Shown: positions 23,152-64,000 of the stretch, piece after piece
Layout: every line of letters begins with the position of its first letter
Numbering within the stretch: the stretch's first letter is position 1
Origin: Sphingomonas flavalba
GTDB taxonomy: Bacteria; Pseudomonadota; Alphaproteobacteria; Sphingomonadales; Sphingomonadaceae
NCBI RefSeq assembly: GCF_004796535.1
Contig: NZ_SPHY01000006.1
Location: 1-64,000, forward strand
Reading direction: 5' to 3'
DNA: 64,000 nucleotides
The notes under the pieces: generated by a model
What the model was told of the DNA's origin: nothing
Seen by the model: the letters and a program-made list of their open reading frames with translations, nothing else
The model's database searches: none
Made by a program: the position numbers and the translations under genes

Positions 23152-23574
23152 TCAGCCGACGATCTCGTCCGGCTCGAAGAAATAGGCGATCTCGATCGCT
23201 GCGTTCTCGTCACTGTCCGAACCATGGACCGAATTGGCCTCGATCGATTCGGCCAGTTCCTTGCGGATCGTCCCCGGCGCCGCATTCCCCGGGTTGGTCG
23301 CGCCCATGATGTCGCGGTTGCGCTGTACGGCGTTTTCGCCCTCGAGTACCTGGACGACCACCGGACCGGAGATCATGAACGTCACCAGGTCGTTGAAGAA
23401 CGGCCGCTCGCGATGGACGGCGTAGAAGCCTTCCGCTTGCTCCCGGCTCATCCGGATGCGCTTCGACGCGACGACGCGCAGGCCGGCCTCCTCCAGCATG
23501 CGGGTGACGGCGCCGGTCAGGTTGCGGCGGGTGGCGTCGGGCTTGATGATCGAAAAGGTTCGGGTCGCGGCCAT
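23152..23574 (-). CDS. ndk: Nucleoside diphosphate kinase
   Basis: Ndk balances nucleoside triphosphate pools through a phosphohistidine intermediate. The 140-residue length is canonical. The start [17 protein letters not shown] is diagnostic, and the active-site histidine is in the [12 protein letters not shown] box close to the C-terminus. It is first in a two-gene unit with the GNAT gene. Polyphosphate kinases encoded elsewhere in the window act on the same nucleotide pools. Confidence 0.96.
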
Positions 23575-23750
23575 GGCCGTTCGGGCTCCGTGAAATAGCG
23601 TTGCGGGAAAGTGGCGTCCCCCTAGTCGCCTCGTACGAAATGCGCAAGCCGGCCGGCGGGCGGCAGCAATTACCCGTTCGGCGGGCAGCGTGCCCCCGGC
23701 CTTCTCCCATACGCTCACTGCCCTACGGTTTCGCGGGGCTATTGACGCCA

Positions 23751-23765
23751 GAACAAAACAAGAAC
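23751..23765. promoter_or_regulatory. Alphaproteobacterial LexA (SOS) box upstream of small membrane-protein gene
   Basis: GAAC-AAAACAA-GAAC matches GAAC-N7-GAAC, the reverse complement of the GTTC-N7-GTTC LexA site of alphaproteobacteria. It lies just after a TTGACG -35-like hexamer (23742-23747) and just before TGTAAT (23767-23772), a good -10, so a bound repressor would block the promoter. The ATG of the small gene is 35 bp downstream. The same motif stands upstream of recA in this window. Confidence 0.7.
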
Positions 23766-23799
23766 ATGTAATGGCGAACACCTGTTTCGGGAGGATTCG

Positions 23800-24021
23800 A
23801 TGCTCGCCTTTCTGTCCCCGCTCCTGTTTATCTTCGCCCTGCTGCTCGCGCTCACGGTGCTGGGTCAGGTGGGCCTTCGCGACGCTACCCGCATCGCTGC
23901 CGTCCTGCGCGGTCGCGGCGTCGTTCAGCCGGTCTCGCCGGCGCGCCAGGCACGAGCCGTCCGCCCCGCCCATATTATTGGCCGGCGGGCGCGCCCTGCG
24001 CTGCTGCGCGATGCCGCCTGA
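23800..24021 (+). CDS. Small single-span membrane protein, probably SOS-induced
   Basis: The predicted protein has 73 residues. The first about 25 form one strongly hydrophobic span ([21 protein letters not shown]), and the rest is a basic, arginine-rich tail (R-rich from residue 31). A GGGAGG ribosome-binding site lies 5-6 bp before the ATG. The promoter region holds a LexA box between plausible -35 and -10 elements. Small membrane proteins under LexA are known in Caulobacter (SidA), where they inhibit division; sequence identity cannot be claimed here. The last 47 bp overlap the 3' end of pssA on the opposite strand. Confidence 0.65.
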
Positions 24022-24763
24022 CCCGCGCATAGCTGCGGATGCTGAACGGCATTGCGGCCAGGTAAAGCGCGCTGATCACGCTCAGCGTCGCCCAGGGCGC
24101 GCTCAGCACCGCGGTGCCGATGATTGCCACTGCCGCCAGCGCTTCGAAGCGGATGCTCCGCCGCAACCGTAGCGACGACCAACTGAACGTCGCGATGTTG
24201 GAGATCATCAGGAAGGCGACGACCCCGGTCCACGGCGCGGTCACCCCCGGCGATCGCAGCAGATCGAACCCGGTCGCCAGCCACAGGAAGATCGGCAGCA
24301 GCGCCAACCCGGCGCCGGCCGGTGCCGGGATGCCGGTTAGGAACCCGGCCGACTTATGGGGCTGCTCGGCCGCGTCGATCTGGGCGTTGAAGCGGGCAAG
24401 GCGCAGCGCGCAGCACACCGCCAGGCTGAGCGCGAACACCCAGCCGAACTGCGGCAGATGCTGCAGCGACCACAGATAGAGGATGATCGACGGCGCCACG
24501 CCGAACGCGATCACGTCGGACAGTGAATCCAGTTCCGCGCCGAACCGGCTCTCGCCCTTCATCATCCGGGCGATCCGGCCGTCCATGCCGTCGAGGATGC
24601 CGGCGACGATCACTGCCGCCACCGCCTTTTCCCATTCGTCGCCGATCGCGAAGCGGACGCCACTGAGGCCCGTGCACAGCGCGAGCGCCGTAACCGCGTT
24701 GGGCGGTAGCGCGCGCAGCGGAATGCCCCGGCGTGGCCGCTCGATGGACGGCGGCGGCGTCAT
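23975..24763 (-). CDS. pssA: CDP-diacylglycerol-serine O-phosphatidyltransferase
   Basis: This membrane enzyme makes phosphatidylserine from CDP-diacylglycerol and serine. The CDP-alcohol phosphatidyltransferase motif DG(x2)DGR(x)AR(x8)G(x3)D(x3)D is present in [27 protein letters not shown]. The 262-residue protein has several hydrophobic spans. Its ATG overlaps the psd stop (ATGA), so both steps of phosphatidylethanolamine synthesis are encoded in one operon, psd-pssA. Confidence 0.95.
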
Positions 24764-35439: not shown

Positions 35440-36516
35440 TCACAGATCGTCGGCGTCGTCCGCACCGGGTCCGGTCATCATTTCCTCGGCCACCCGATCG
35501 GTGTGGTTGCGGATCGCCTTTTCCAGCTTCGCCGCCAGCTCCGGGTTTTCCTTGAGATAGGTCTTGGCGTTCTCCCGCCCCTGGCCGATGCGGATCGAGT
35601 CGTAGGAGAACCAGGCGCCGGATTTCTCGACCAGCCCTGCCTTAACGCCAAGGTCGAGGATCTCGCCGATCTTTGAAATGCCCTCGCCGTACATGATGTC
35701 GAATTCGACCTGCTTGAACGGCGGCGCGACCTTGTTCTTCACCACCTTCACCCGCGTGCTGTTGCCGACGATGTCGTCGCGGTCCTTGATCTGGCCGGTG
35801 CGACGGATGTCGAGACGGACGGACGCGTAGAATTTCAGCGCGTTGCCGCCGGTCGTCGTCTCCGGATTGCCGTACATCACGCCGATCTTCATGCGGATCT
35901 GGTTGATGAAGATGACCATGCAGCGCGAACGGCTGATCGAGCCGGTGATCTTGCGTAGCGCCTGGCTCATCAGCCGGGCCTGGAGGCCGACATGGCTGTC
36001 GCCCATCTCGCCCTCGATCTCGGCGCGGGGGACAAGGGCGGCGACCGAGTCGATGACCAGCACGTCAATCGCGTTCGAGCGGACCAGCGTATCGGCGATC
36101 TCCAACGCCTGCTCGCCGGTATCGGGCTGCGACACGATCAGTTCGTCGATGTCGACACCAAGCTTCTTCGCGTAAACCGGGTCAAGCGCGTGCTCGGCGT
36201 CGATGAAGGCAGCGGTACCGCCGCCCCGCTGCGCCTCGGCGATCGCGTGCAGTGCGAGTGTAGTCTTGCCGGAGCTTTCCGGCCCATAAATCTCGACGAC
36301 GCGGCCGCGCGGCAAGCCGCCGATACCAAGCGCAATGTCCAGCCCGAGCGAACCTGTGGAGATCGCCTCCACCTGCATCGCTTCCTTGCTGCCCAGCTTC
36401 ATCGCCGAGCCCTTGCCGAACGCGCGATCGATCTGCGCGAGCGCCGCTTCCAATGCCTTTTGCCTGTCCATATTCCCCGCAGTTCCGCTGTCGATGACTC
36501 TAAGCTGTGCCGACAT
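35440..36516 (-). CDS. recA: Recombinase RecA
   Basis: RecA forms filaments on single-stranded DNA, catalyses strand exchange and triggers LexA self-cleavage. The 358-residue protein has the Walker A GPESSGKT at 78-85, the MAW motif region, the L2 loop [27 protein letters not shown], and an acidic C-terminus (DDADDL). The start at 36516 has GAGGGAG upstream; 20 further in-frame codons would run towards the promoter and are unlikely. Upstream lies a LexA box, as expected for autoregulated SOS control. Confidence 0.98.
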
Positions 36517-36590
36517 GGCAGGCTCCCTCGTAGATCGCCCATGCGCCGGGTTCAACGCACTCCGGCTTATGTACATAGTTTGTTCTACTA

Positions 36591-36605
36591 GAACAAGAGA
36601 GGAAC
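36591..36605. promoter_or_regulatory. LexA (SOS) box of recA
   Basis: On the recA coding strand this reads GTTC-CTCTCTT-GTTC, the alphaproteobacterial LexA site. An overlapping inverted repeat, TTGTTC-TACTA-GAACAA (36580-36596), shares the upstream GAAC. The box centre is about 80 bp upstream of the recA ATG. Confidence 0.85.
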
Positions 36606-62662: not shown

Positions 62663-64000
62663 TTAGAACTTGAAACGAACGCCAAGGAAGTAACGGCTAC
62701 CGATGACGTCATAGAGAGACGGGTCCGTATTGGCGTCGCCGGCAAGGACGGTGCCCATGATCGGCGGCTTTTTGTTGAAGATATTGTCGATGCCGGCGAC
62801 GATCTCAGCAAAGCTGGTGATCCGGAACTGCGACGACAGGTCGAAGTAGTATTGCGGGCTGGTCCGCTGCACCGCCGCCGTGATCCCCGGATAGAGCTTC
62901 AGCACGCCGACCCGCCGCATGCTGCCGCGCAGGGTCAGCGGGCCGCTGTTGTAGGTCAGGTTGGTCTTGAGGCTCAGCTTCGGCGTGCCGTAGATGCCGT
63001 AGCCGGTACAGCCGCCGCCCATCCGGCCCGCGCAATCGCGCTTCGGCTGGCCGGCAAGCACCTGGGTCGACCGCTCGAGCATCCAGCTGGCAACGACCTG
63101 GAAGTCGAGCCGCGCCAGATCCCCGCCGATTGCCAGCGCATCCGGCAGGTCGACACGATAGTCGATCTGCGCGTCGATGCCGCGCACCGCCAACGTACCG
63201 ATGTTCTGCAGGTTGGTCGCCACATAATCGACCTGGCCGTTGGGCAGCCGGACGATGGCGCGGCAGGTCGTCGAATTCGGGTCCAAGTTGATGAAGCAGT
63301 CGGTCAGCGTCTGATCGGTGTTAACGCTGGCGATCGCCCCGGTGACGTCGATGTTGTAATAGTCGACGGTCAGGTTCAGCCGGTCCAGGAAGGGCGGGGA
63401 AATCACCGCGCCCACCGTCCAGGTCTTGGACTTTTCTTCCTGCAGCGCGGGGTTGCCGCCGGTCAGGGCCGTCATGCCGACCGTTCCCTGCTGCCAGTTG
63501 GGCAGGTCCACCGCCGGGACGCCCTGCGAAATGCATAGCTGCTGCTGGGCGGATGTCGGCTGGCGGGTGGCGACGCACGGGTCCTCGCCCGATCCGTAGG
63601 AACGGCCCATCGGGCGATAAAGCTCGTTCAGGGTCGGCGCCCGGATGGCGCTGTTATACGCGCCGCGGAAGCGGAGCCAGCGCACCGGCGCCCACTCGCC
63701 GCCCAGTTTCCAGGCGAACACGCTGCCGATCGTCGAATAATCGGCGTAGCGTGCCGCACCCTCGATCGCCAGCGAGTCCGCGAACGGCACGTCGGCCAGG
63801 ATCGGCACGCGGGTTTCGCCGAAAAACTCCTTCAGGTTGTAGGACCCGCTCGCCGCCGCCAGCGACGACGGACCGTATTCGCCGGCCAGGTCCTGCGGGC
63901 TGGGCAGGAAGCTGTAGCTGTCCTTGCGATATTCGACGCCGATCGCGATCGGCACCGGCCCCGCCGGCATCTCGAACAGGTTGCCGCTCAGCGAGGCGCC
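62663..64000 (-). CDS. TonB-dependent receptor, C-terminal part (runs off the window)
   Basis: The frame is open to the right edge and gives the last 445 residues of an outer-membrane receptor barrel. Typical parts are LRFRGAYNSAIRAPTLNELYRP, the NPALQEEKSKTWTVGAVISP segment, LNLTVDYYNIDVTGAI and the C-terminal YFLGVRFKF ending in phenylalanine. The FMNP-like start of this part (LFEMPAGPVPIAIGVEYRKDSYSF) is the pattern of sphingomonad receptors for organic compounds. The plug and TonB box lie outside the window. It is followed by the amidohydrolase, lyase and M24-like genes, so it probably imports their substrate or peptides that yield it. Confidence 0.9.
   Translation of the reverse strand, partial: GASLSGNLFEMPAGPVPIAIGVEYRKDSYSFLPSPQDLAGEYGPSSLAAASGSYNLKEFFGETRVPILADVPFADSLAIEGAARYADYSTIGSVFAWKLGGEWAPVRWLRFRGAYNSAIRAPTLNELYRPMGRSYGSGEDPCVATRQPTSAQQQLCISQGVPAVDLPNWQQGTVGMTALTGGNPALQEEKSKTWTVGAVISPPFLDRLNLTVDYYNIDVTGAIASVNTDQTLTDCFINLDPNSTTCRAIVRLPNGQVDYVATNLQNIGTLAVRGIDAQIDYRVDLPDALAIGGDLARLDFQVVASWMLERSTQVLAGQPKRDCAGRMGGGCTGYGIYGTPKLSLKTNLTYNSGPLTLRGSMRRVGVLKLYPGITAAVQRTSPQYYFDLSSQFRITSFAEIVAGIDNIFNKKPPIMGTVLAGDANTDPSLYDVIGSRYFLGVRFKF

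Follow-up and report, generated by a model that had tools for sequence, protein, structure and literature searches.

The 64-kb window, by which we mean the whole stretch of 64,000 nucleotides of Sphingomonas flavalba DNA that was analysed, carries next to pssA a small open reading frame that, judged from its sequence context, is almost certainly a real gene under LexA control. We propose that it encodes an SOS checkpoint protein found throughout its bacterial family, a brake on cell division with a single membrane span that would be cleared from the cell by the ClpXP protease; as a whole, we hold this reading to be true with a probability of about one half. The more restricted proposal that the small protein acts as a division brake while DNA is being repaired appears probable by analogy with known inhibitors of this kind. 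The parts of the locus are collected in Table 1.

Table 1. Features of the small LexA-controlled gene and of its neighbours in the 64-kb window.
Feature	Position	Strand	Basis
-35-like element TTGACG	23742..23747	+	read directly
LexA box GAACAAAACAAGAAC (GAACN7GAAC)	23751..23765	+	read directly; exact in 102/110 pssA loci
-10-like element TGTAAT	23767..23772	+	read directly; 19 nt from the -35-like element, weak
Ribosome-binding site GGGAGG	23789..23794	+	read directly
Small membrane-protein gene, 73 aa, ATG start, TGA stop	23800..24021	+	ORF, synteny, purifying selection in relatives
Codons for residues 2-38, long predicted helix (membrane span plus cytoplasmic extension)	23803..23913	+	AlphaFold2
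Codons for the basic Arg/Pro tail	23914..24009	+	low-confidence part of the model
Codons for C-terminal -DAA and stop TGA, candidate ClpXP degron	24010..24021	+	
pssA, conserved convergent neighbor	23975..24763	-	Pfam PF01066, PF08009; synteny
ndk, divergent neighbor here, outside the conserved unit	23152..23574	-	Pfam NDK

An earlier, sequence-only reading of this DNA had described the box, the two promoter-like elements, the ribosome-binding site and the 73-residue open reading frame, and direct inspection located each of them exactly where it had been placed. The overlap with the 3' end of pssA, also part of that reading, amounts to 47 bases shared by the two convergent genes. A scan for sigma-70 promoters with a spacing of 16-18 nt returned no promoter at the small gene, where the two elements lie 19 nt apart. 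The PssA protein of the window, assigned through its Pfam domains, matches NCBIfam TIGR00473 just below the cut-off.

The direct repeat GTTCN7GTTC is, in the available parts of the respective papers, the published LexA motif of the Alphaproteobacteria (PMC8565304) and of Caulobacter (PMC12700426), and this operator (GTTCN7GTTC/GAACN7GAAC) is present in the promoter of the small gene. The window contains three GAACN7GAAC boxes, while shuffling leads one to expect 1.47; the count by itself is therefore not above chance, and it is conservation that lifts the box of the small gene above it. As had been stated earlier, a box of the same type (36591-36605) stands before recA (ORF 35440-36576, minus strand, Pfam RecA). 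Across the genome 75 boxes were matched, many of them probably due to chance. Of 19 stretches taken around chosen boxes, ten had their adjoining open reading frames read, as did lexA; the genome has a single lexA match, whose start is preceded by this motif at a distance of about 30 bp. The box also precedes uvrA, a gene for a UvrD/PcrA-type helicase, two SRAP genes, a ribonucleotide reductase gene, a PA0069-type radical SAM gene, and two ORFs with ImuA matches below the family cut-off. Together, these genes make up an ordinary SOS set.

Some of these boxes have neighbors or arrangements worth recording in their own right. One box is common to two divergent SRAP-domain ORFs (G000:C7:17900-20700; L107), and some 1.1 kb from this pair there is an ImuA-like ORF whose box is identical; the other ImuA-like ORF that has a box is found on another contig (L109). 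Boxes also precede genes that one would not expect in an SOS set, namely a Cas5d gene, an amidohydrolase gene and an unassigned ORF (L110). The box of the Cas5d gene (PF09704; L108) is positioned 40 bp before the start (G000:C7:37229-37243), and a CRISPR system with Cas5d is possibly under SOS control, or the match arose by chance. The LexA-type box at 62666-62680 of the window lies upstream of a divergent, minus-strand amidohydrolase-like gene and may likewise be fortuitous.

Conservation was assessed at 110 pssA loci of the same GTDB family, drawn from the first 113 listed, with G204 (contig end), G216 and G222 left out; a pssA match was present in 192 of 199 genomes. When a box was counted if it fell within 450 bp before the pssA stop, exact GAACN7GAAC boxes were found at 102 of the 110 loci, as compared with a mean of 0.86 and a maximum of 4 in 50 rounds of shuffling. 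With one mismatch allowed, the count rises to 108 of 110 against 18.35 in the shuffles, so boxes of this kind are weak evidence. A convergent small ORF with an N-terminal membrane segment accompanies pssA at 108 of the 110 loci, 105 of them recognized by an automatic rule and three (L145, L147, L157) added by eye; the remaining two loci (L154 and L155), both from genus g108, have no small ORF beside pssA. Counted by genus, the exact box is present in 60 and the ORF in 61 of 62, with g108 lacking both. Among 30 genomes taken as named loci, which include Sphingomonas, Novosphingobium, Sphingobium, Sphingopyxis, Stakelama, Croceibacterium and Tsuneonella and of which four duplicate members of the set of 110, the exact box was counted in 27 and the ORF, by rule, in 28. 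Reading these loci by eye left the number of genomes in which an exact box accompanies the small gene at 27 of 30: Sphingobium sp. DEHP117 has both box and ORF, positioned beyond the 450-bp limit, and the box counted in Sphingorhabdus contaminans (L284; 2275-2289) lies 18 bp before the RmuC gene that follows pssA, the small gene being absent beside pssA in this species. Since the gene is missing from the site in g108 and in S. contaminans, it is either dispensable or able to move.

Outside the family, seven other families of the order supplied 24 pssA loci, of which 22 were readable (one of them with just 60 bp of flank); an exact box was absent from all 22, and three had a box with one mismatch. 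A looser ORF rule reported hydrophobic ORFs at 11 of these 22 loci, which we read as the tails of RND transporters; the small-ORF rule alone is hence unspecific. Three genomes of the window's own family, nearly complete and all from genus g7 (G006, G123, G185), gave no pssA match at E <= 1e-10; these bacteria have either a very divergent PssA or another route to phosphatidylserine.

The sequence-only reading had set the gene in an ndk-pssA gap, an arrangement that turned out to be local to this genome, because the flank fetched from 98 of the 110 relatives' pssA loci contains the start of rpsB at the place that ndk occupies here. For the same reason the occurrence of box and ORF in relatives, which that reading had pointed to as its test, failed on the ndk side and held on the pssA side. 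At 80 NDK loci of relatives no such small gene was found before ndk. Only two of these loci (L060, L095) have an exact box in the 1 kb ahead of ndk, in both cases in the opposite orientation and unaccompanied by such an ORF. Taken alone, the ndk side would have spoken for a gene that is not conserved, a conclusion overturned by the counts of box and ORF beside pssA. That the gene stands beside pssA and psd, convergent with the former and with overlapping ORFs at 100 of 105 loci, could also mean that its product is an SOS-induced regulator of phospholipid synthesis, binding to PssA or to the membrane and adjusting the supply of phosphatidylserine and phosphatidylethanolamine during filamentation. 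We regard this as quite improbable: with an rpsB start as the opposite neighbor in 98 of the 110 relatives, the site is simply a stable one, convergent genes do not form an operon, and the protein gives no hint of an enzyme as its partner.

LexA box and gene are conserved as a unit, with the box placed within the promoter spacer or directly behind it. Of 100 leaders of relatives, 92 have a TTGAC sequence no more than 32 bp ahead of the box, and in 77 of these it starts 9-12 bp before the box; in most relatives the box is therefore located inside the promoter spacer. From the box to the start codon the distance has a median of 100 nt (100 loci), while the leader in the window is short. The leaders of the family are often long, as they are in genes controlled at translation, and this would suit an SOS-induced membrane toxin resembling TisB, which would damage the membrane potential and put damaged cells to rest instead of stopping division specifically; the LexA box, the single span and the basic tail all fit such a toxin as well. 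We nevertheless consider it unlikely. Unlike a toxin module, the gene keeps its place next to pssA in 61 of 62 genera; a search of plasmids with the window protein gave no match, and the tail of TisB is much shorter than the tail seen here. Moreover, no common RNA fold was predicted in 27 aligned Erythrobacter-like leaders, and the window's own leader, being short, does not conform to the long-leader pattern.

Purifying selection on the small ORF was apparent in 24 of 26 pairs of relatives, for which dN/dS ranged from 0.09 to 0.64 (saturated in the other two) when pairs with at least 50% local identity were compared outside the overlap with pssA; by this measure, the ORF codes for a real protein. 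These data bear on a further possibility, namely that the transcript and not the protein matters, an SOS-driven antisense RNA to the 3' end of pssA lowering pssA expression. The overlap of the ORFs at 100 of 105 loci is in keeping with it, as is the finding that no terminator-like site is present around the junction of the small gene and pssA in the window. With dN/dS below 1 in the non-overlapping part, and with box and ORF present but not overlapping pssA at L152, L156 (where the boxes have one mismatch), L165, L185, L211, L274, L287 and L276, such an antisense function is very improbable.

The 105 ORFs scored by rule encode proteins of 52-111 amino acids (median 79) that are small and have, by prediction, one N-terminal span. 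Lys and Arg are missing from residues 1-19 in all 105, a feature that is partly built in because the ORF rule demands a hydrophobic start, and the net charge of the tail is above zero in 102 of 105, with a median of +7. Basic segments of membrane proteins lie on the cytoplasmic side (the positive-inside rule), and the uncharged N-terminus together with the basic tail make it very probable that the N-terminus is outside and the C-terminus inside. AlphaFold2, run on the single sequence from the window, modelled one helix followed by short pieces of low confidence (mean pLDDT 73.5), with blockwise values of 84-96 for residues 11-40 and of 52-63 for the Arg/Pro tail. Ile-x-x-Ala-Leu (I32 61%, A35 59%, L36 72%) comes after the membrane helix, at about residues 32-36, in 64 members, while A-D-S and R-G recur near residues 22-28 in the 41 others, which we call Erythrobacter-like. 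An Arg/Pro tail predicted to be disordered and cytoplasmic could bind DNA or acidic partners, so that the protein might have another SOS-related task at the membrane, in which the tail anchors or inhibits a protein of repair, replication or segregation. This alternative is rather unlikely, as the tail has no conserved motif beyond two Arg residues and the Ala-Ala end.

The last residue is Ala in 101 of 105 proteins and the last two are Ala-Ala in 94 (69 AAA, 12 VAA, 4 LAA and others), whereas the PssA proteins themselves end in -AA in 13 of 110 cases. The window protein ends in -DAA; other ends found are -VA, -TA, -GA, -AL, -AV and -AI, and the protein from L134 ends in -VRR. At the 100 of 105 loci at which the ORFs overlap, the -AA end is antisense to Val/Ile-Arg/Lys-Arg of PssA. 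Among 98 overlapping loci, the PssA codon that makes the antisense stop is AGG in 59 of 60 cases in which it encodes Arg, although AGG accounts for 5.3% of the 656 Arg codons in the background, and it encodes Lys in 36 of the 98. The next PssA codon is CGG in 83 of 89 Arg cases against a background of 33.5%. The most frequent Arg codon, CGC, was seen once at that position, where it would replace the second-last Ala by Gly. The species are related, and binomial p-values for this codon bias are thus not to be taken literally. Five loci from four genera in which the ORFs do not overlap all keep the -AA end (L152 TRLAA, L156 FRLAA, L165 DCIAA, L185 HAMAA, L211 LALAA); further -AA ends without overlap are RLAA in L147 and AAA in the named genomes L274 and L287, and L276, which also has box and ORF without overlap, ends in LVA. 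Both the codon bias in PssA and the persistence of -AA at loci free of overlap argue that it is the small protein, and not PssA, that drives this end.

The tmRNA tag encoded by this genome, ANDNEALAIAA, ends in the same two residues, and a clpX gene is present. A degron of the tmRNA-tag type would have Ala-Ala behind a small or hydrophobic residue; the -AA ends of 94 of 105 proteins agree with this, while the window protein itself has -DAA. Collectively, the -AA ends, the codon bias in PssA and the AIAA end of the tag lead us to favor, if only slightly, a ClpXP degron resembling the tmRNA tag at the C-terminus of the small protein. Against it count the tie of the -AA end to PssA codons at the overlapping loci, the -DAA of the window protein and the other ends named above. 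Such a degron requires a cytoplasmic C-terminus, which matches the predicted topology.

The reading of the protein as a division brake draws on its small size and single span, its SOS promoter, its fixed site in 61 of 62 genera, and the failure to find SulA: no member of the SulA family (PF03846) was detected in this genome, and the window protein has no Pfam match. LexA would block the promoter of the small gene until DNA damage removes it; the protein would then enter the inner membrane, N-terminus outside and basic tail inside, and its membrane helix would arrest division at a late stage, in the way that YneA works on FtsW and SidA is believed to act. The C-terminal -AA would be recognized by ClpXP in the manner of a tmRNA tag, and this turnover would lift the brake soon after LexA returns. 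The genome has two FtsW-type proteins, both matching below the family cut-off, and nothing in the sequence of the small protein points to FtsW or any other divisome protein; naming FtsW as the target is a guess by analogy.

The following comparisons rest on the available parts of the respective papers. SidA and DidA of Caulobacter, to which the sequence-only reading had likened the protein, act on FtsW/FtsN (PMC4211646), and the likeness holds for the probable role only, since size and control differ. SidA shares LexA control through a GTTCN7GTTC motif, an inner-membrane location, a single span and an alphaproteobacterial host; by its description, however, it has 29 residues, as compared with 73 here and 52-111 in the 105 proteins scored, and it binds FtsW. 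Removal of sidA is reported to relieve the filamentation of a Caulobacter lexA deletion (PMC12700426). DidA is SOS-independent and induced by DriD, in contrast to a gene with a conserved LexA box, and is described as binding the periplasmic domain of FtsN, while the tail here is predicted to be inside. SosA of Staphylococcus, which acts at septum formation and whose extreme C-terminus sets its turnover (PMC6851548), is closest to our protein in its anatomy and in diverging while it stays at one site: it has 77 residues, an N-terminal span and a turnover governed by its C-terminus, and it is retained at a single chromosomal location with 25-60% identity. The side of the tail differs, as the C-terminus of SosA is outside and the membrane protease CtpA has been proposed to act on SosA as its substrate, whereas here the tail is predicted to be inside and its end resembles the tmRNA tag. 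YneA, which acts on FtsW via its membrane helix (PMC13396833), and ChiZ are likewise SOS-induced and have one span, and YneA is degraded by membrane proteases; both, however, have an extracellular LysM domain, and no Pfam LysM match was found in the window protein or in 26 members. SulA of Escherichia coli would share the role and disrupts FtsZ. Because the tail is predicted inside and the C-terminal parts of SosA and YneA are outside, the mechanism must differ in part. If the division brake is confirmed, the protein would be an independent addition to the convergent set of SidA, YneA, ChiZ and SosA, set apart from them by its predicted topology and a built-in off-switch.

Searches with the protein sequence recovered next to nothing, and this is because it changes so fast that Pfam, NCBIfam and tblastn miss the gene. 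Neither Pfam nor NCBIfam matched the window protein, and for 26 members Pfam and PHROGs gave single chance-level matches at most. By tblastn, the window protein had no relative in 595 pattern stretches, and 21 of 59 genomes gave a match at E <= 0.1, its own included, the best of the others (0.005) being read, like the rest, as noise. A hidden Markov model built from 58 members matched twice in 289 genomes of the class, in the own genome and in one of the same family; it missed G014, which bears the gene by synteny (L200), and its silence elsewhere is therefore no proof of absence. Were the role confirmed, operator plus synteny would be a better guide to such genes than sequence.

In the literature, searched with most subscription journals outside the search, we found no description of such a gene in sphingomonads and nothing on how these bacteria stop division after DNA damage; the gene offers one concrete object on which division arrest in sphingomonads can be tested. 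The role as such is already known; the protein family, its predicted topology, the degron and a link to DnaA were not found described. The last of these comes from the leaders of relatives. The sequence TTATCCACA, which we take to be the DnaA-box consensus, occurs on either strand in 22 of 100 leaders, where shuffles give 0.03. For TTWTCCACA the figures are 32 of 100 and 0.15, with 1 in 100 upstream stretches and none in 100 coding stretches; these latter sites are spread over 23 genera. The core TCCACA is found upstream of the box in 62 of 100 cases and is unspecific, and the claim is therefore limited to the full nine bases. The short leader in the window has no DnaA-box-like site. These counts suggest joint control by LexA and DnaA in part of the family. 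It is a tentative and somewhat doubtful extension that the gene represents an undescribed, family-wide checkpoint with a cytoplasmic basic tail, a degron of its own, a stop and -AA end held in place by antisense codons of pssA, and wiring to DnaA boxes in many relatives; if true, a single gene would read both DNA damage and the level of the initiator. Sites of the form TTATCCACA or TTTTCCACA lie downstream of the LexA-controlled promoter and ahead of the start codon in, for instance, L190, L143, L205 and L226, and the consensus of 27 hand-picked Erythrobacter-like leaders contains two tandem copies of TCCACA.
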